Shown: in pieces, positions 19,516 to 63,446 of the stretch
Layout of the letters: each line of letters begins with the position of its first letter
Position numbering within the stretch: position 1 is the first letter of the stretch
Source of the DNA: Methanomassiliicoccus luminyensis B10
GTDB taxonomy: Archaea; Thermoplasmatota; Thermoplasmata; Methanomassiliicoccales; Methanomassiliicoccaceae
Assembly (NCBI RefSeq): GCF_000308215.1
Contig: NZ_CAJE01000023.1
Location: 1 to 64,000, forward strand
Length of the DNA stretch: 64,000 nucleotides
Direction: 5' to 3'
The notes under the pieces: generated by a model
Told to the model about the DNA's origin: nothing
Database searches by the model: none
The model's input: only the letters and a program-made list of their open reading frames with translations
Position numbers and translations under genes: made by a program

Positions 19516-20577
19516 GTGTTATCCGTGGTGAGATTGGAGGAAGGGAGCGGTACTTCCGACTACAGCGATAGGCGGTACCTCTCCGCCGGCGAGGCGGCCA
19601 ACTTCCTGGGCACGACGGTCCGGGAGCTGCACCGCCTGGTCAGGGAGTCAAAGGTCCCCGTGACCATCGCCGGCAGCGGGCAGCAGAGGTTCGACATCGC
19701 CCACCTGAGGGAGATGGGCGAGCGCGCGGTCCCCCGGCCCCCGGTCCCGGAGCGCACCGTTCTCGAGGTCAACGGGACCAGGCAGGAGGTGCTGTGCAGG
19801 GGCTCGCAGAGCATGGGCGAACTGGAGGACGGCAGCGTGCACCTGGTGGTGACGTCGCCGCCGTACTTCGATACCAAGATGTACTCCCCCCGGCCGCTGC
19901 GGGGCGATCTGGGGGACGTCCACTCCGTGGACGACTGGTTCGACGAGATCGGCCGGGTGTGGTCGGAGTGCTACAGGGTCCTCCAGCCGGGGCGGAGGGC
20001 CTTCATCAATATCATGAACCTGCCGGTCCGGCAGCCCGACGGGGGCTATCGCACCCTGAACCTGGTGGGGAGGACCATCGACCGGTGCGAGGAGCTGGGC
20101 TTCGTGTTCAAGCGGGACATCGTATGGCACAAGACCAACGGCGTCCGCGCCCCCTTCGGCACCTACCCGTACCCGGGGGGCATCCTGATCAACAACATGC
20201 ACGAGTTCATACTGGAGCTGGAGAAGCCCATCCCCAGAGCGCTACGGCCGAAGAAGTACGCCCACGTCCCTGCCGCCGATAAGGAGGCCTCGCGGCTGGA
20301 CAAGGAGTTCTGGCTGTCCATAAAGAACAGCGACGTGTGGCTGATGGCGCCCCAGGCCAGCGGGGACCGCCGGGACCACATCGCCCCCTTCCCCGCCGAG
20401 CTCCCGGCGCGGCTGATACGCGCCTTCACCTTCAAAGGCGAGACGGTCCTGGATCCGTTCCTGGGCTCCGGGACCACGCTGCTCGCCGCGGCCGCCCTGG
20501 GGCGCAACGGGGCGGGGTACGAGATCAACCCCCACATCGCCGGTTCCGCAGTGGAGGCGCTGAAGAAGAGAGCTTGA
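19516..20577 (+). CDS. DNA methyltransferase with N-terminal helix-turn-helix domain
   Basis: Amino-methyltransferase (N6-adenine or N4-cytosine). The catalytic motif TSPPYFDTKMY (motif IV) comes before the AdoMet motif DPFLGSGTTLLAAAALGR (motif I), i.e. beta-class order. The first ~60 residues (YLSAGEAANFLGTTVRELHRLV) look like a MerR/excisionase-type HTH that would aid DNA binding. No endonuclease or specificity gene is adjacent, so it appears to be an orphan methylase. The start is uncertain: GTG 19516, GTG 19525/19528 or TTG 19534; no ATG is available. Confidence 0.85.
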   Translation: MLSVVRLEEGSGTSDYSDRRYLSAGEAANFLGTTVRELHRLVRESKVPVTIAGSGQQRFDIAHLREMGERAVPRPPVPERTVLEVNGTRQEVLCRGSQSMGELEDGSVHLVVTSPPYFDTKMYSPRPLRGDLGDVHSVDDWFDEIGRVWSECYRVLQPGRRAFINIMNLPVRQPDGGYRTLNLVGRTIDRCEELGFVFKRDIVWHKTNGVRAPFGTYPYPGGILINNMHEFILELEKPIPRALRPKKYAHVPAADKEASRLDKEFWLSIKNSDVWLMAPQASGDRRDHIAPFPAELPARLIRAFTFKGETVLDPFLGSGTTLLAAAALGRNGAGYEINPHIAGSAVEALKKRA

Positions 20578-21108: not shown

Positions 21109-21654
21109 ATGTACGAGCAGCTCTTGGCGGCCGCCAAAATCGGGCATGCGAATATGGTGCGGGGGCGGCCCGTTAGCGACAAGGCCAAGGGGAACGAAGG
21201 CCCCCGGTTCTCGATGCCCTCCAAGAATGACAAGATGGCCCTGGCGCAGATATCGTTCACATCGATCCTCCTGCTCGTGGTCATGCTGCCGATGACCCTG
21301 TTCATAACCGGTGGTGTCGGCGGTTCGTTATCGGTCACGATGGACGAGGAAAAGGTCAGCATCGATGCACCTCCGTATGGTTGGGGCATCGCCTATTCGG
21401 ACATAGACAGCTGCGAGCCGAATGACGGGACGTTCCACGTCAGCCGCGAATTCGGACTGAGCAACCACGAAATAATCGCGGGTCGGCTGTACAACGACGA
21501 GGTAGGGAGCTGCAACGGTGCCATCTATAAGGATACGGGCGCTTGCGTGCTGATTAGGACGTACGATGGAACATACTACGTGTTCAACGATGCGTCCGTT
21601 GAAGGCACCGCCTCACTGCACGCCGAACTATTGAGACATCTGCCAACGTTGTGA
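21109..21654 (+). CDS. Membrane-anchored protein with PH-like soluble domain, function unknown
   Basis: A 181-aa protein. Residues ~47-70 (ISFTSILLLVVMLPMTLFIT) form one membrane helix, followed by a soluble beta-rich domain with IDSCEPNDGTFHVSREFGLS and a VLIRTYDGTYYVFN strand pair. This resembles bacterial PH-like domains in layout, but I cannot confirm the family. It overlaps the tail of the transposase remnant on the other strand. The true start may be ATG 21154. Confidence 0.6.
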   Translation: MYEQLLAAAKIGHANMVRGRPVSDKAKGNEGPRFSMPSKNDKMALAQISFTSILLLVVMLPMTLFITGGVGGSLSVTMDEEKVSIDAPPYGWGIAYSDIDSCEPNDGTFHVSREFGLSNHEIIAGRLYNDEVGSCNGAIYKDTGACVLIRTYDGTYYVFNDASVEGTASLHAELLRHLPTL

Positions 21655-21659
21655 AGATC

Positions 21660-21922
21660 TCCCATTTTGCCAACTCGCGGTATGACTTCACCAGCATCCG
21701 GCGAAGCACGGCCAGCACTAGAAGCTGGTGCTGCGTGAACGAGTGCTTCGACCTGTTGCTCGAATACAGCGGCATACCGAGGCGTCCTGCTCCCTTCGCT
21801 ATCTGATCGACCGCACGCATTATTTTGTTGCCGTTCCAAGTAGTATCGTTCGGCACGAGACCATACCGTCCCGAGGCCAGTTGTCTCCAGGAAGAGCTTG
21901 AACTGACCTCTGGCGAGGTCAT
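21660..21922 (-). pseudogene. Transposase remnant (IS5/IS4-like N-terminal fragment)
   Basis: The minus-strand frame from 21922 contains SSNRSKHSFTQHQLLVLAVL followed by RRMLVKSYRELAKW. This is the conserved N-terminus of archaeal DDE transposases, where QLLVLLVLRQ...SYRELAEWL precedes the catalytic domain. After ~70 matching residues the similarity stops abruptly at EIFTTLADV, and no catalytic DDE part follows. It is a deleted insertion-sequence fragment at the left edge of the AT-rich island. I found no terminal inverted repeats. Confidence 0.65.
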
Positions 21923-22042
21923 TTCGTGCCCGATGTTACATCATGCTTTCGACCCCTGCCACGATGATCTCCACAAAGTCGATGATGAGGGAATTAACAA
22001 CTGATTCAATTCTCTGGGTCTTTCAATTAACCGCCCAGCTAG

Positions 22043-22050
22043 TATAAATA
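22043..22050 (+). promoter_or_regulatory. TATA box for the phosphoribosyltransferase-like gene
   Basis: TATAAATA lies about 28 nt (centre to ATG) upstream of ATG 22075. This spacing predicts a leaderless mRNA starting at or next to that ATG, and excludes the earlier in-frame ATG at 22057. Confidence 0.65.
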
Positions 22051-22074
22051 TCAAATATGTTCTTCCATAGTTAT

Positions 22075-23145
22075 ATGGAGCATGGAAGAATAAATCTGGA
22101 TGATTTTGCTATCAGCGGATTTGATTACTTCCTAAACTCCGATAACCACCAAGAAAAGAAGAAGGAAATATATGGCCTCCTTGCAAATCTGTTCAAATCC
22201 AGTTCATTAGAGATCGATACTCTTGTTGGTGTGGATAGAAAGGGTGCGTGGATAGTTGATAATTTCTTCGCTGAATATCCCGGTTTAAAAAAATTCAACG
22301 TCATCTCCGATAGCGAAATCGACGCGAAAAAGAGCATGGTAAGCAAGCTGAGAGTATTGGTTTTTGATGATTCTATCCATACTGCGGATACAATAACCAA
22401 CGTTATTTCCAGGCTGCAGAGATATAAACCAAAAAACATAATAGTTGCTTGCCTTTTATCGAATGCAGGTTCCAATGTAATAATTAATAAAAAATATCCA
22501 GATATTAAGATAGTGCCATGTAAGACCGTATTTGAAGATTTTCCCAAGCAGTCCGAAGACTATCTGGTTTGGGAATTACCCTTTGTCGATGGCCTTAAGG
22601 CAAAAGACAACCCCGATTTTCCGAAGCTAAAAATCACTACGCCTGAGCAAGATCTAGATAAGATCGCCGACTCCATATGTAATGCGATAAAGAATAGTGT
22701 AAATAATGTATCAGATATCGAAATAGAAAAAGTCATAAATAAGGTTCTTTCTCGAAACATCAACGTCGAAGTCGAAGCTGATGAGTCAGTGATAGCGTCT
22801 CCATATTACAAATTTGCGACGGTGGATGAGTCGAAAGTTAGAGCATTCATAACAAAGTACGAGGGCCGAACGGAGATTATCGTTACGCCACTTGTCTTCC
22901 CTAGGTTGGATTCAAATGGGTGTGACATAATTGACACATCTCCAAATGACTGTCTTTGTAAGGCCGTGAAATTGAAAAAGAAGAATGATGAGATATGCAA
23001 ATTGTGCTTACCTTACTTTGTGAACGGAATATTCTTGGATAGGCTGAATAAAAAGATCAACGAAACTCTAAAGGCAGACAACATCCTCATCGAGACAATA
23101 AAGACAGAGAGGCCTAAGATAGGCCGATTTATTCGGATTTCTTAG
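22075..23145 (+). CDS. Phosphoribosyltransferase-like protein of probable conflict island
   Basis: 356 aa. Residues 94-106 read VLVFDDSIHTADT, the PRPP-binding loop of type I phosphoribosyltransferases (four hydrophobics, two acidics, then a T/S-rich loop). The preceding LVGVDRKGAWIVDNFF matches the usual upstream strand. The C-terminal third has a Cys cluster (CLC and CKLC with basic spacing) that could bind zinc. The gene is AT-rich, unlike its neighbours, and ends in TAG. PRTase-like domains have been described in predicted prokaryotic conflict systems beside HD-domain partners; the HD gene at 23620 fits that picture. Function is inferred, not shown. Confidence 0.65.
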   Translation: MEHGRINLDDFAISGFDYFLNSDNHQEKKKEIYGLLANLFKSSSLEIDTLVGVDRKGAWIVDNFFAEYPGLKKFNVISDSEIDAKKSMVSKLRVLVFDDSIHTADTITNVISRLQRYKPKNIIVACLLSNAGSNVIINKKYPDIKIVPCKTVFEDFPKQSEDYLVWELPFVDGLKAKDNPDFPKLKITTPEQDLDKIADSICNAIKNSVNNVSDIEIEKVINKVLSRNINVEVEADESVIASPYYKFATVDESKVRAFITKYEGRTEIIVTPLVFPRLDSNGCDIIDTSPNDCLCKAVKLKKKNDEICKLCLPYFVNGIFLDRLNKKINETLKADNILIETIKTERPKIGRFIRIS

Positions 23146-23422
23146 GCCTTTTTGTCGTATCATAGATCTTGTCTATGATGTACTCAGCTTCTCCTGCGAT
23201 TTTGAAGGTCCTAGTCCACTTGTCATTGACCTTCTCCCAGTTGCCATCTATAATTCCAAGGTCAAACAGCTTATTCAGGGTCTTCGAAACAGTGGATCGA
23301 GACATGTCGTCTTTCAGTTCCTCCACTAACTTCGTGAAGTAGATGCCCTCCTTTTTTTCCCGGTATTCACGAATAACGTAGCATATTTTAAGGTCGTTTG
23401 ACAGGACCGACCAATCAACCAT
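23129..23422 (-). CDS. Small winged-helix transcriptional regulator
   Basis: 97 aa from ATG 23422, preceded by a GGGGG stretch. The segment FTKLVEELKDDMSRSTVSKT followed by LNKLFDLGIIDGNWEKV is a winged HTH of the MarR/ArsR-like archaeal type, with the wing VNDKWTRTFKI. It is convergent with the phosphoribosyltransferase gene (17-bp overlap) and divergent from the HD gene. Local regulation of the island is a reasonable guess. Confidence 0.72.
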   Translation of the reverse strand: MVDWSVLSNDLKICYVIREYREKKEGIYFTKLVEELKDDMSRSTVSKTLNKLFDLGIIDGNWEKVNDKWTRTFKIAGEAEYIIDKIYDTTKRPKKSE

Positions 23423-23464
23423 GCTGTCTGCCCCCTTGTGTAATCTTAGGGAATTTGTCCACAA

Positions 23465-23619
23465 ATTATACTATACCCTCAGGTATGAATATTGTGGATT
23501 TCGGTGGTATCCCATCACACGGTATAACAATAAGCGGTATATATAACCTTCAGATTCGAGTATGCTAATTAGACTTCGGTATATTTATTAACCAATATCA
23601 CATTATAGGTACTTAAAGG
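23465..23619. promoter_or_regulatory. AT-rich promoter region between regulator and HD gene
   Basis: 155 bp, strongly AT-rich, with several TATA-like elements (for example TATATATAACC near 23538-23548 and ATATTTATTAACC at 23581-23593). The second is correctly placed for the HD-domain gene. No open frame is present. Confidence 0.5.
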
Positions 23620-24426
23620 GTGGTCAGGACGCCTCATTCGCGGGAAGCAGCTCTGTATATCCATTTGGCAAATTCTGAATCTGATCAATTGCTAATTGAT
23701 TCAGAACAGATGGCCCGCCAGATCTTTCCATTTATTCAGAGAAATTTCAGAGACCTGACCGGTCATGGCATAGTCCATTCAACTTCCATTATCAGTTACC
23801 TTAATCTATTCATCAGCATATTAAAAGCAGAAGGGCTTGAACTAAGTCGCACTGAAGTTAGGTTGCTATATTCAGCAGCATGGTTGCACGACATTGGCTA
23901 TTTGACCTGCAGTGAGCGGAGTGAGCATTCGAGGGAATCCTGTAGGCTCCTCCAGATCATTGAAGAAAATTATTCATTATTGGGCGATTTAAAGAACTCG
24001 ATGATGTATCTTGTGAAATATCACCAATCGAGATATGATCTATCCGAGGTACCAAAGAACGCCGTACACATACATGGGGACCAAGTACGTTTACAATTTC
24101 TCTGCGCCCTATTTAGACTAGCAGATGCGTGCCACATCGGAGAAGATAGGGCTAACAGGTTGGTCTACTATTTGATCGAAGGGGAGATAAATCCTGAAAG
24201 TAAACCCCATTGGATTGGCAACAGCTCTGTCTTATCGGTGGACTTCATTGTCGAAGATGCTAAGATATTGATTACAGTAACGAACGAAAACGATGCGAAG
24301 GTTCTTACCGATGGCTTTATCAAAGATTTTCAAAAACTCATGCCATTTTTAGCTCCGGCATTTCCATTCTATTCAGTAGAGATACAAAGTGAAACACCGT
24401 TCGAGCTGGAAGGGGGAAGAATCTGA
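23620..24426 (+). CDS. HD-domain phosphohydrolase-like protein
   Basis: 268 aa with the ordered ligands of the HD superfamily: H49/H53 in TGHGIVHS, H90-D91 in AAWLHDIGY, H103 in EHSRES, YHQS near 135 and a later Asp in RLADAC. These coordinate a metal pair for phosphohydrolase or nucleotidase chemistry. The start is GTG 23620, after AAAGG; ATG at codon 31 is an alternative but would shorten the N-terminal helix. AT-rich composition, like the phosphoribosyltransferase gene. The pair resembles PRTase/HD combinations predicted to act in anti-phage or stress systems. Confidence 0.7.
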   Translation: MVRTPHSREAALYIHLANSESDQLLIDSEQMARQIFPFIQRNFRDLTGHGIVHSTSIISYLNLFISILKAEGLELSRTEVRLLYSAAWLHDIGYLTCSERSEHSRESCRLLQIIEENYSLLGDLKNSMMYLVKYHQSRYDLSEVPKNAVHIHGDQVRLQFLCALFRLADACHIGEDRANRLVYYLIEGEINPESKPHWIGNSSVLSVDFIVEDAKILITVTNENDAKVLTDGFIKDFQKLMPFLAPAFPFYSVEIQSETPFELEGGRI

Positions 24427-24848
24427 ACTCGGAAGCCCCTGGGGGCGGAAAAATGCAATGATCAGGTTTGCTAGCAAAACTCCGTCCTTTGGTTCAAGCC
24501 GGGTGAGCAGCATATCTCTAACGGTATAACGCCAATGGTCAGATCATCGCTGGTTGATATCAATGCTAGACCATTTTCAAATAAACAAAGTCCTGAGACA
24601 CTGCTGTATGCTCTTCATCTCGTAACATGCGGGACGCATGTGCCATGCAGAAAGCAAGTCTACCCTGCGCTCCCCTCACGGGTGTTCTTTCGTTCGAACA
24701 TATTAATAGCATTGATGTTTTCTTTGTGGCACAAGGCTTGTGCGTCAGGGGAACCGGCGATTCCGCGAGCGATGAGGCTTGCAGCCCCGGCTCAGGATTA
24801 TTGCCTAGCTCAACTCATTTCACCACACGCTCATACGGAGAAGGGACG
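24427..24848. other. 422-bp intergenic region at the right edge of the AT-rich island
   Basis: Composition returns from AT-rich to the GC-rich background across this stretch. A TATA-like CATATTAATAG lies near 24698-24708. I see no credible gene, tRNA or repeat array. Short open frames here are not supported by ribosome sites. Confidence 0.45.
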
Positions 24849-26264
24849 ATGAGGTCTAAGATACAGACGCTCAGCGATGAGCTGAACGAGAACTTCAAGG
24901 AGAGAGAGGACGAGATCGCAGGGTCCTTGCTGGCCATGATATCGGGGGAGCATGTGCTGTTCATCGGCCCCCCCGGCACGGCCAAGAGCCTGCTGGCTAG
25001 GGAGATGTGCAAGGCCATCGAGGAGGGGAACTTCTTCTACTATCTCCTCACCCGCTTCACCACTCCCGACGAGATCTTCGGGCCGCTGTCCCTCAGCTCC
25101 CTCCAGGAGGACGTGTTCAGCCGCAAGATCGAGGGATACCTCCCCACCGCCAACGTCTCCTTCCTGGACGAGATCTTCAAGGCCAATTCGTCCATCCTCA
25201 ACTCCCTGCTCACCATCCTCAACGAGAGAAAGTACCACAACGGCTCCGAGCTGGTGACCGTGCCGCTGTACTCCGTGTTCGGCGCGTCCAACGAGCTGCC
25301 GGAGGAGAACGAGAGCCTGGAGGCCCTGTACGACCGCTTCCTGTTCCGTTACTACGTCGGCTACGTCCAGGACGAGACCAACTTCCTGGACCTCATCCTG
25401 GGGCATGCCGAGAACTTCGCGCCCTCCACCAAGCTGAACATCGCCGAGCTGGACGTCCTGCAGGAGAGGGCGGAGGCGGTCCCGGTGGGCGAGGACGTGC
25501 TCGACGCCCTGGTGGGCCTTCGCAAAGAGTTCCGTTCCATGGGGGTGAGCGTTTCGGACCGCCGCTGGAAGAAGTTCGTGCGCGTCCTCCGCGTGGCCGC
25601 GGCCGCCCTGGACCGCGAGAACGTGGACAAGACCATGCTGCCGCTGCTGCAGCACATGACCTGGAACAAGCCGGAGGAGAAGGCCACCATACGCAAGCTG
25701 CTCCTGGAAATGACGGTGTCCGGCGGGGTCGACCTGGAGAGGACCAAGAAGGACCTCCAGGACCTGCACGCCTCCGCGGCCCTGTCCAGGAACTACATCC
25801 TGCCGGAGAAGGTTACCTGCTACAGCTGCGAGCGCGAGTTCACCGACTGGAACTCGCTCAGGGAGCATGGGCATAACAGCCCCGATCACATCTATGTCCT
25901 CACCGGCAAGGAGGAGAAGTACCAGCTGACCAGGAACAGGACCACCCCTAAGATGTACCCGAACTTCCTGGACTACTTCGAGTCCAAGGGAAGGCCGGTG
26001 GTCCGGGCCCTGGACGAGGACAAGAAGGCCCTGTACCTCCAGGAGGTGGAGGACCTCGAGGACGACCTGGGGTTGCTTGAGACAGACCTGGAGAAGGAAA
26101 GGGCCGAGCTTCACAAGGCTCTCGTCGAGAACATCTGGCTGTCTCACCGGGACCGCGAGGATATAATGTCCATCTACGACGGCAAGGCGGCGGTCATGGG
26201 TGAGATGAGATCCCTTCTCGGGGACACCAGGGATATCGTCACCACCGAGGAGCGCGTGGAATAA
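24849..26264 (+). CDS. MoxR/RavA-type AAA+ ATPase
   Basis: 471 aa. Walker A GPPGTAKSLLAREM at ~residues 39-52, Walker B VSFLDEIFKA, sensor GASNELPEE and arginine-finger region LYDRFLFRYYVGYV all follow the MoxR/RavA pattern. The C-terminal half contains a possible single zinc-finger-like unit (CYSCEREF with later H-x-H). GAGAAGGGA precedes ATG 24849, so the longer upstream frame is not used. Paired with a VWA-domain gene 11 nt downstream, as is normal for MoxR AAA+ chaperones that remodel or metallate partner complexes. Confidence 0.88.
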   Translation: MRSKIQTLSDELNENFKEREDEIAGSLLAMISGEHVLFIGPPGTAKSLLAREMCKAIEEGNFFYYLLTRFTTPDEIFGPLSLSSLQEDVFSRKIEGYLPTANVSFLDEIFKANSSILNSLLTILNERKYHNGSELVTVPLYSVFGASNELPEENESLEALYDRFLFRYYVGYVQDETNFLDLILGHAENFAPSTKLNIAELDVLQERAEAVPVGEDVLDALVGLRKEFRSMGVSVSDRRWKKFVRVLRVAAAALDRENVDKTMLPLLQHMTWNKPEEKATIRKLLLEMTVSGGVDLERTKKDLQDLHASAALSRNYILPEKVTCYSCEREFTDWNSLREHGHNSPDHIYVLTGKEEKYQLTRNRTTPKMYPNFLDYFESKGRPVVRALDEDKKALYLQEVEDLEDDLGLLETDLEKERAELHKALVENIWLSHRDREDIMSIYDGKAAVMGEMRSLLGDTRDIVTTEERVE

Positions 26265-26275
26265 GAGAGGCGGGC

Positions 26276-27733
26276 ATGGTCGCGTCGGCGATGGTGCGCT
26301 GGAAGAAAGCCTATAACGATGACGCGGTGCGCCTGGTGGTGGGGAGGCCGCGAAGGATCCCCCGCCGCAAGCGTGAGGAGATGGCATCCATCCTGGCCCA
26401 GGAGCTGTTCGGTTCCCGCAAGGTGGTGGACGCACGCCGGCACGCCGCCAGGTACGGGGCTTTCCACGTTGTCCTGAGGCTGCTCAAGGAGACCCCGGCG
26501 TGGAGCGAGATGAGGGGGATGGCGGCCAAGAGCGACATCATCGCCGCCATGGCCCTGAGGGGCGTGGTGTCCATGGTGCTGGACATCATGGACCGGACCG
26601 TCCTCCTTCCTTCCGATACCGAGGAGGAGCGGGCCATGGGCGGACTGATCGCGCTGACGGTCCACGCCTGGCAGCGCCAGACCGCCATAGGGAGGGACGA
26701 CGTCCTCCGCGCGGTGGAGGAGCTGGAGGCCATCGACGCCAGAGGGGAGGCGAGGGGCGCGCTGAGGGACCTGATGGGGGACGCGCTCCGGGAGGGCATG
26801 GAGGAGCTGCGCAGCTACCTGAGCATGCTCTCTATGATGGAACAGCTGCTCCCCCCCGGAGAGGACGAGATCTCGGTGGAGGAGGTATTCGTGGCCTACC
26901 TCCGGGACGTGGACAGGATGGCCCAGCTGCTCCAGATGAGCAGCCAGCTTCAGAGGATCATTGACCTGATGGGGCAGCTGGACGTGGAGTTCGGGGCCAA
27001 GAGGGAGAAGGCCCAGAGCTTCTCTACTCAAGAGGCGTATGCGCTGGGCCGCTCCAAGGACGTCCAGCACGTGCTTCCCGTGGAGCTGCTGAAGCTCAAG
27101 GTGCCCATCCTGCAGACCCTGTTCTTCTCCCAGATGCTGGAGGGCGAGCTTCTTACCTACGAGCTGAAGGGGCTGAACTGGTCCGCCGCCCCCGAGAGGC
27201 GCAGGAAGGGGCCGGTGGTGGCCCTCATCGACGCGTCCGGCTCCATGGTGGGGGAGCCGGAGCTCCTCGCCAAGTCGCTCATCCTCATGCTGGCCAGGCG
27301 CATGGCCCGGGAGAAGCGCGAGATCAAAGTGATCCTCTTCGCCGCCAACGACTGGAAGTTCGAGCTGAACCTCTCGGACAAGAAGAAGATGGCCCAGAAC
27401 CTCCTGGACATCGTGTGCCGGCAGTTCGAGGGCGGGACCGACTTCAACTCCGCCCTGCGGGTGGGGCTGGAGACCGTGAGGGAAAAGGAGTGGAGGGGCG
27501 CCGACATACTGTTCTTCACCGACGGCATGTCCCAGGTGTCGGACCAGGACCTGGTGGGCGAGTGGCTGAGCTTCAAGAAGCGCACCCAGTCCAGGATATA
27601 CACGCTCATCGTCGGCTCGGACCAGGCCGGGGGGCTGGAGAAGGTCTCCGACCACACCTGGGTGCTGTCGGCGGGGACCTGGGACGTGGAGGGCAGCCCG
27701 TCCAACATCATCAAGCTCATCGCCGACGGCTGA
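26276..27733 (+). CDS. VWA-domain protein partnered with MoxR ATPase (ViaA-like)
   Basis: 485 aa. The C-terminal von Willebrand A domain carries the MIDAS motif DASGS (VALIDASGSMVGEPELLAKS), FEGGTDFNSAL with the second metal residue, and the third loop FFTDGMSQ. The N-terminal ~300 residues are helical. MoxR-VWA pairs act as metal- or complex-assembly chaperones; in a methanogen window with Ech and corrinoid enzymes the client is unknown. Confidence 0.86.
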   Translation: MVASAMVRWKKAYNDDAVRLVVGRPRRIPRRKREEMASILAQELFGSRKVVDARRHAARYGAFHVVLRLLKETPAWSEMRGMAAKSDIIAAMALRGVVSMVLDIMDRTVLLPSDTEEERAMGGLIALTVHAWQRQTAIGRDDVLRAVEELEAIDARGEARGALRDLMGDALREGMEELRSYLSMLSMMEQLLPPGEDEISVEEVFVAYLRDVDRMAQLLQMSSQLQRIIDLMGQLDVEFGAKREKAQSFSTQEAYALGRSKDVQHVLPVELLKLKVPILQTLFFSQMLEGELLTYELKGLNWSAAPERRRKGPVVALIDASGSMVGEPELLAKSLILMLARRMAREKREIKVILFAANDWKFELNLSDKKKMAQNLLDIVCRQFEGGTDFNSALRVGLETVREKEWRGADILFFTDGMSQVSDQDLVGEWLSFKKRTQSRIYTLIVGSDQAGGLEKVSDHTWVLSAGTWDVEGSPSNIIKLIADG

Positions 27734-63374: not shown

Positions 63375-63446
63375 GGAGTGTTGGTTCGGCGACCACCAGG
63401 CCTCTACAGCCACGGCAGCCGGGTTCGACTCCCGGGCACTTCGCCA
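63375..63446 (+). tRNA. pylT: tRNA-Pyl (CUA anticodon), encoded CCA
   Basis: 72 nt. Acceptor 63375-63381 pairs with 63436-63442 (two G-U pairs), discriminator G63443 and encoded CCA 63444-63446. D stem TGGT/ACCA (63382-63385 with 63392-63395) follows the acceptor with no linker base, and its loop is only 6 nt. Anticodon CTA is 63404-63406. The anticodon stem is interrupted: three inner pairs, an A-A mismatch with a bulged C (63413), then two outer pairs. Variable loop is 3 nt; T stem CCGGG/CCCGG with loop TTCGACT. The missing linker and broken anticodon stem are hallmarks of Methanomassiliicoccales tRNA-Pyl. Confidence 0.93.

Follow-up and report, generated by a model that had tools for sequence, protein, structure and literature searches.

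The window analyzed here, a stretch of 64,000 nucleotides from the 2.62 Mb genome of Methanomassiliicoccus luminyensis B10, carries at positions 22057–24426 three neighbouring genes encoding a phosphoribosyltransferase (PRTase), a small winged helix-turn-helix (wHTH) protein and a phosphohydrolase of the HD-CE family. They lie in an AT-rich island with approximate limits at 21990 and 24800, whose GC content is 0.415 against 0.614 for the whole window, and only 0.3% of window segments of the same length are equally AT-rich. The sharp compositional difference described in the initial annotation holds for all three genes, at 0.38–0.43 versus 0.61 (PRTase 0.385, wHTH 0.43, HD 0.43). The broken transposase that it placed beside them is also borne out: the left flank is a remnant of an IS5-like transposase on the reverse strand (21669–21975), whose 307 nt share 85% DNA identity with positions 722068–722372 of contig C12 of the same genome, at an IS5-like transposase. 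The right boundary is a GC-rich MoxR gene starting at 24849. Near neighbours of the PRTase are the wHTH and HD genes together with bPH_5, GNAT, methylase and MoxR genes. Just left of the island, an orphan N4/N6 DNA methylase with an HTH-like N-terminal segment is found at 19516–20577, and at its left edge a 181-aa protein (21109–21654) that combines a PH-like domain (PF10882) with a probable membrane segment. A MoxR ATPase and a vWA protein form a pair at 24849–27733; the MoxR protein matches PF20030 (1.6e-57), a family whose Pfam name points to MoxR-vWA-beta-propeller systems. MoxR is kept without the island in G188, G196, G232 and G172. The MoxR-vWA pair was dropped as a candidate part of the system because of its high GC content and its conservation in G188, G196 and G172, where the island is absent. 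No empty site was obtained as proof of insertion; the genes 5' of MoxR vary among the genomes compared.

The PRTase (22057–23145) and HD (23620–24426) genes are on the forward strand and the wHTH gene (23129–23422) is on the reverse strand. Because of this opposite orientation, and because the 3' end of the wHTH gene overlaps that of the PRTase gene tail to tail by 17 nt (23129–23145), the three genes do not form one operon. Both 3' ends are spanned by an inverted repeat with 17-nt arms that are 88% complementary (23103–23156), which is likely a terminator. Between the wHTH and HD genes lies an imperfect palindrome, TCCACAA...TTGTGGA (23458–23498), possibly the operator of both.

The PRTase, the candidate effector, has 362 amino acids and belongs to the type I PRTase superfamily according to its PF00156 match above cut-off (34.3 bits, cut-off 26.3), its acidic pair D104-D105 and its fold. 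An AlphaFold2 model built with seven sequences has a confident core (residues 30–180, pLDDT ~70–96) and an uncertain C-terminus, and a Foldseek search of the core against the PDB returned UPRT, HPRT and APRT folds at E ~1e-5; PurR is also among the PDB matches. The Loop I motif R61-K62-G63 (RKG; 22237–22245) is nearly invariant among 13 relatives, and so is D104 of the PRPP-binding loop LVFDDSIHTADT (22357–22392), in which D105 is invariant. Of the PRTase motif initially described, the PRPP loop with D104-D105 is thus present (the window copy reads FDDSIHTADT), but the loop glycine (TG) is an alanine in this copy (HTADT); most relatives have Gly, and PRPP-loop residues vary across the family (HTADT, HHSNS, LTDAIRRG). 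One aligned position, which we take from its motif to be that of the HPRT catalytic-base Asp, is mostly His, Asn, Lys or Arg in this family, and the window protein is therefore not an ordinary purine PRTase. The C-terminal Cys cluster already reported (C289...C314xxC317; 22921–23007) was recovered and is conserved in most relatives; it might be a zinc site. It is missing in the PRTases of loci L020 and L021, the two with a cyclase-like gene. The PRTase gene ends in TAG, and a tRNA-Pyl gene (CUA), in keeping with Methanomassiliicoccales, is located at 63375–63446 of the window; reading through the TAG would lengthen the protein by only about ten residues, up to a TGA.

The wHTH protein, a candidate repressor or antitoxin, has 97 amino acids from its ATG start, with the reading frame open to a TTG at 23464, and is encoded once in the genome. 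It is 34–55% identical to other wHTH proteins, mostly adjoining PRTases, and shows a weak likeness to archaeal Lrs14/Sta1 regulators. Mean identity among family members is 20% for the PRTase versus 35% for the wHTH, the PRTase being the more diverged. Two variants of the wHTH were seen, one tandem-duplicated inside a single protein in Methanosarcina sp. DH2 (L036, 9266–9811), the other in L049 of genome G011 (103–907), where an RNase III-like gene takes the place of the PRTase in the tail-to-tail arrangement.

The HD protein (268 aa) is a clear member of the HD-CE family (PF24391, E 5e-20, 72.7 bits, cut-off 27). The full metal-ligand set attributed to it is present and conserved (H53, H90-D91, H135, D169), with H53, H90-D91 and D169 invariant across three aligned HD proteins, and from these ligands (H, HD, D) it is predicted to be an HD phosphohydrolase. 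Its structure model had a mean pLDDT of 42 and was left out of the analysis. The HD proteins of genomes G462 (L079) and G476 (L080), which score 72–79 bits on PF24391, are ~30–33% identical to it, and the other HD-CE matches in Methanosarcinia are far weaker (none better than E 1e-18), mostly 600–1200-aa multidomain proteins or accompanied by other genes. One HD-CE gene of a Methanosarcinia genome lies between a DNA cytosine methylase and a P-loop ATPase (L085, 18–3684) and marks another candidate conflict locus. A 584-aa HD-CE-like protein is encoded among structural genes of a viral contig (L092, 5635–7389).

In Methanomassiliicoccales and Methanosarcinia, the PRTase and the wHTH occur together as a conserved pair. 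Relatives of the window PRTase with ~20–35% identity occur in other Methanomassiliicoccales lineages, plus one copy at a contig edge. In L018 (G172) and L021 (G184) the wHTH and the PRTase unit are arranged tail to tail, in L020 (G241) divergently, and a genome scan revealed convergent pairs in Methanosarcina sp. DH2 (L036) and a Methanosarcinaceae MAG (L035). Across 11 loci the two genes are tail to tail in nine, seven of which have gaps of -17 to +35 nt. Among 300 genomes of the class that contains Methanomassiliicoccales, a separate wHTH profile matched 9, mostly ones that also have the PRTase; it led to G026 (L048), whose convergent PRTase was seen afterwards. In G011 the PRTase and the wHTH lie at the ends of different contigs, in G208 the PRTase is broken, and G235 and G271 have a wHTH without a visible PRTase, the G271 copy being near a contig end.

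In Methanosarcinia, a full-length PRTase member is found in 6 of 238 genomes at E 1e-81 or better, scores that are high by construction since the final profile includes these six, and the next matches, mostly PRTases of ~200 aa, reach 8e-11 or weaker. This wide gap (1e-81 versus 8e-11) sets the PRTase family apart from housekeeping-type PRTases; a grouping with these would have spoken against the initial proposal. The gap is better evidence than the PRTase tree, in which the split between the family and the control rows is weakly supported (77%), branches are long and two control rows, L057 and L110, were wrongly picked. The wHTH is present in 7 of the 238 genomes, namely the six PRTase genomes, in all of which it lies beside the PRTase (6/6), and G476; the profile search detected no further full-length PRTase member lacking a wHTH among these genomes. 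Counted as if the 238 genomes were unrelated, the hypergeometric probability of this overlap is 3e-11, and five of the six members were first found with the PRTase alone, their wHTH by a separate search. Co-divergence of the two proteins is weak (Mantel r 0.72; 0.38, p 0.025, without one near-copy). The distribution is patchy, with 6 of 238 Methanosarcinia genomes and at most ~3% of the 300 genomes of the other class.

The pair is the core of the module, and HD-CE is its recurrent third part. G462 carries the PRTase (-), the wHTH (+) and HD-CE (+), with wHTH and HD reading frames overlapping by 13 nt and the PRTase ~880 nt away and divergent, and in G476, in which no PRTase was found, the wHTH is followed by HD-CE at the contig end. 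The full trio was thus seen only in the window's genome and G462, with an HD-wHTH pair in G476. Against the possibility, raised in the initial annotation, that the genes never co-occur elsewhere, the pair recurs in another archaeal lineage, and so does the trio at least once. Other loci have other additions: a class III cyclase-like gene directly 3' of the PRTase in L020 (4390–5241) and L021 (9431–10201), a DUF2254-like or similar membrane protein upstream in L036 and L063, and an N-terminal membrane segment with an 83-aa membrane protein in L064 and L065; membrane-anchored forms are found in G365 and G368. The modules of the latter two genomes are 79% identical over 2.3 kb, and the alignment ends on both sides in unrelated flanks, which shows that the module moves as a unit. 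It is more AT-rich than its flanks in 11 of 11 loci, and IS elements or toxin-antitoxin genes are near some of them (L067, L079, L035, L066). We conclude that the module is real, conserved and mobile. Its neighbourhoods consist mostly of ordinary genes, and the modules lie outside classical defence islands. Neither wHTH nor PRTase relatives were found in the viral contigs searched, nor PRTase relatives in the plasmids searched.

Membership in predicted conflict families, part of the initial case for a defence function, was confirmed by HMM search for HD-CE (72.7 vs 27 bits) but not for PRTase-CE (PF24390), on which the window PRTase had no match and all members tested stayed below cut-off, the best relative at 26.9 bits against 27. 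PADLOC models likewise gave no match for the window PRTase; on PRTase_III-A, L066 and L048 reached 1.6e-8 and 2.5e-8, versus 0.0014 and 0.021 for control PRTases. This likeness of a few distant members to retron III-A models fits a conflict role. Effectors of type III retrons are PRTase and WH pairs (PMC12548924). The module thus has in common with type III-A retrons the pairing of a PRTase and a small DNA-binding protein of winged-helix type, but its genes are mostly convergent and its hosts archaeal. A motif scan found no YxDD reading frame in the window or beside the other modules, with one RT-like frame 6 kb away in L067; as to an msDNA-encoding ncRNA, Rfam, which may not cover those of type III-A, gave no match in the window stretch, and retron models gave no wHTH match. 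Lacking a reverse transcriptase, the module was dropped as a retron. Protection against T7 and lambda has been described for a pair of DprA and PRTase, in a paper that gives the way in which retron PRTases act as unknown (PMC9122126). As in ShosTA and PsyrTA, the PRTase is the proposed effector of a two-gene defence or toxin-antitoxin unit, but no DprA-like gene adjoins the window PRTase. Kinship to ShosT/PsyrT was rejected, the ShosT profile match being unspecific, with a PRPP synthetase control scoring higher. Pycsar, consisting of a class III cyclase and a cNMP-gated effector, differs in that the window module has no cyclase, such genes being confined to L020 and L021. The papers found do not contradict the statement that no three-gene system of this layout has been described, but the pairing at its core, PRTase with wHTH, has precedents in type III retrons (PMC12548924). 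As far as these papers show, the module is new as a unit and a variant of the PRTase-effector theme.

The main rival to a conflict module, since the PRTases nearest by profile are mostly HTH-PRTase regulators, is a split metabolic regulator, in which a non-catalytic PRTase senses PRPP or a nucleotide and controls transcription with a separate wHTH. The nearest Methanosarcinia PRTases are mostly ~203-aa proteins with an N-terminal HTH, which we take to be GfcR-type; the PurR match and the variable PRPP-loop residues also point this way. GfcR and PurR likewise combine a PRTase fold with an HTH, but do so in one chain and are encoded by widespread genes, whereas the module's HTH is a gene of its own, mostly on the opposite strand and of another HTH type; the N-terminal fusion typical of GfcR is absent from the window, where the two genes are separate and convergent. 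The patchy, AT-rich and mobile character of the module, its HD or cyclase-like partners, its membrane-anchored forms in G365 and G368 and a PRTase divergence far beyond that expected of a regulator make such a function unlikely.

A second-messenger system, in which the product of the third gene would synthesize a signal (class III cyclase) or break it down (HD-CE) and the PRTase and wHTH would respond to it, would accommodate the cyclase-like genes of L020 and L021, which both keep the metal-Asp motifs DIVGF and GD and whose neighbouring PRTases have no Cys cluster. The L021 protein exceeds the cut-off of PF00211 (24.2 vs 21.9 bits), but that of L020 has no Pfam cyclase match. The window lacks a cyclase, both enzymes are absent from most loci, and no cyclic-nucleotide-binding domain was found; we regard this explanation, too, as improbable. 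The HD-CE gene of the window might instead be an independent passenger that entered the same AT-rich landing site as the PRTase-wHTH module: HD is absent from most PRTase-wHTH loci, and a separate upstream region containing TATA-like sequences precedes the window gene. This is quite improbable, given that the same small HD-CE subfamily adjoins the same rare wHTH in G462 and G476 and that no other Methanosarcinia genome contains this HD-CE at better than E 1e-18.

We therefore favor, at somewhat less than an even chance, a compact mobile archaeal conflict module that serves defence or addiction, with the PRTase as effector, the wHTH as repressor or antitoxin and a nucleotide enzyme that can be exchanged. 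Facing this reading are the missing PADLOC match of the window PRTase, the unreached PRTase-CE cut-off, the mostly ordinary neighbourhoods, the restriction of the observed full trio to two genomes and the negative searches of viral contigs and, for the PRTase, plasmids. Also against it, classical toxin-antitoxin pairs are co-transcribed, whereas the PRTase and wHTH genes are mostly convergent. Toxicity, the repressor or antitoxin role, the substrates and the defence role of the module are what we infer for the following scenario. A wHTH dimer would bind the palindrome between the wHTH and HD genes and keep the module at a low level, and might keep the PRTase inactive as well. A virus or element that disturbs this control would release the PRTase, which by acting on PRPP together with a base or nucleotide would stop growth or viral replication. 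Nucleotide hydrolysis by the HD protein might contribute to the effector's action or bring it to a close. Rather doubtful is the more specific idea of an archaeal immune system, in which an exchangeable HD-CE or class III cyclase would set or clear a nucleotide signal for the PRTase effector and the wHTH, making the 2–3 kb cassette an RT-free counterpart of type III retrons.

PRTases act as effectors in a number of bacterial anti-phage systems. The module extends the pairing of a PRTase with a winged-helix protein to methanogens, in which few defence systems have received study. As it is small, retron-free and archaeal, and combines a conserved DNA-binding partner with nucleotide enzymes that can be swapped, it may offer a simple object for finding what such PRTases do.
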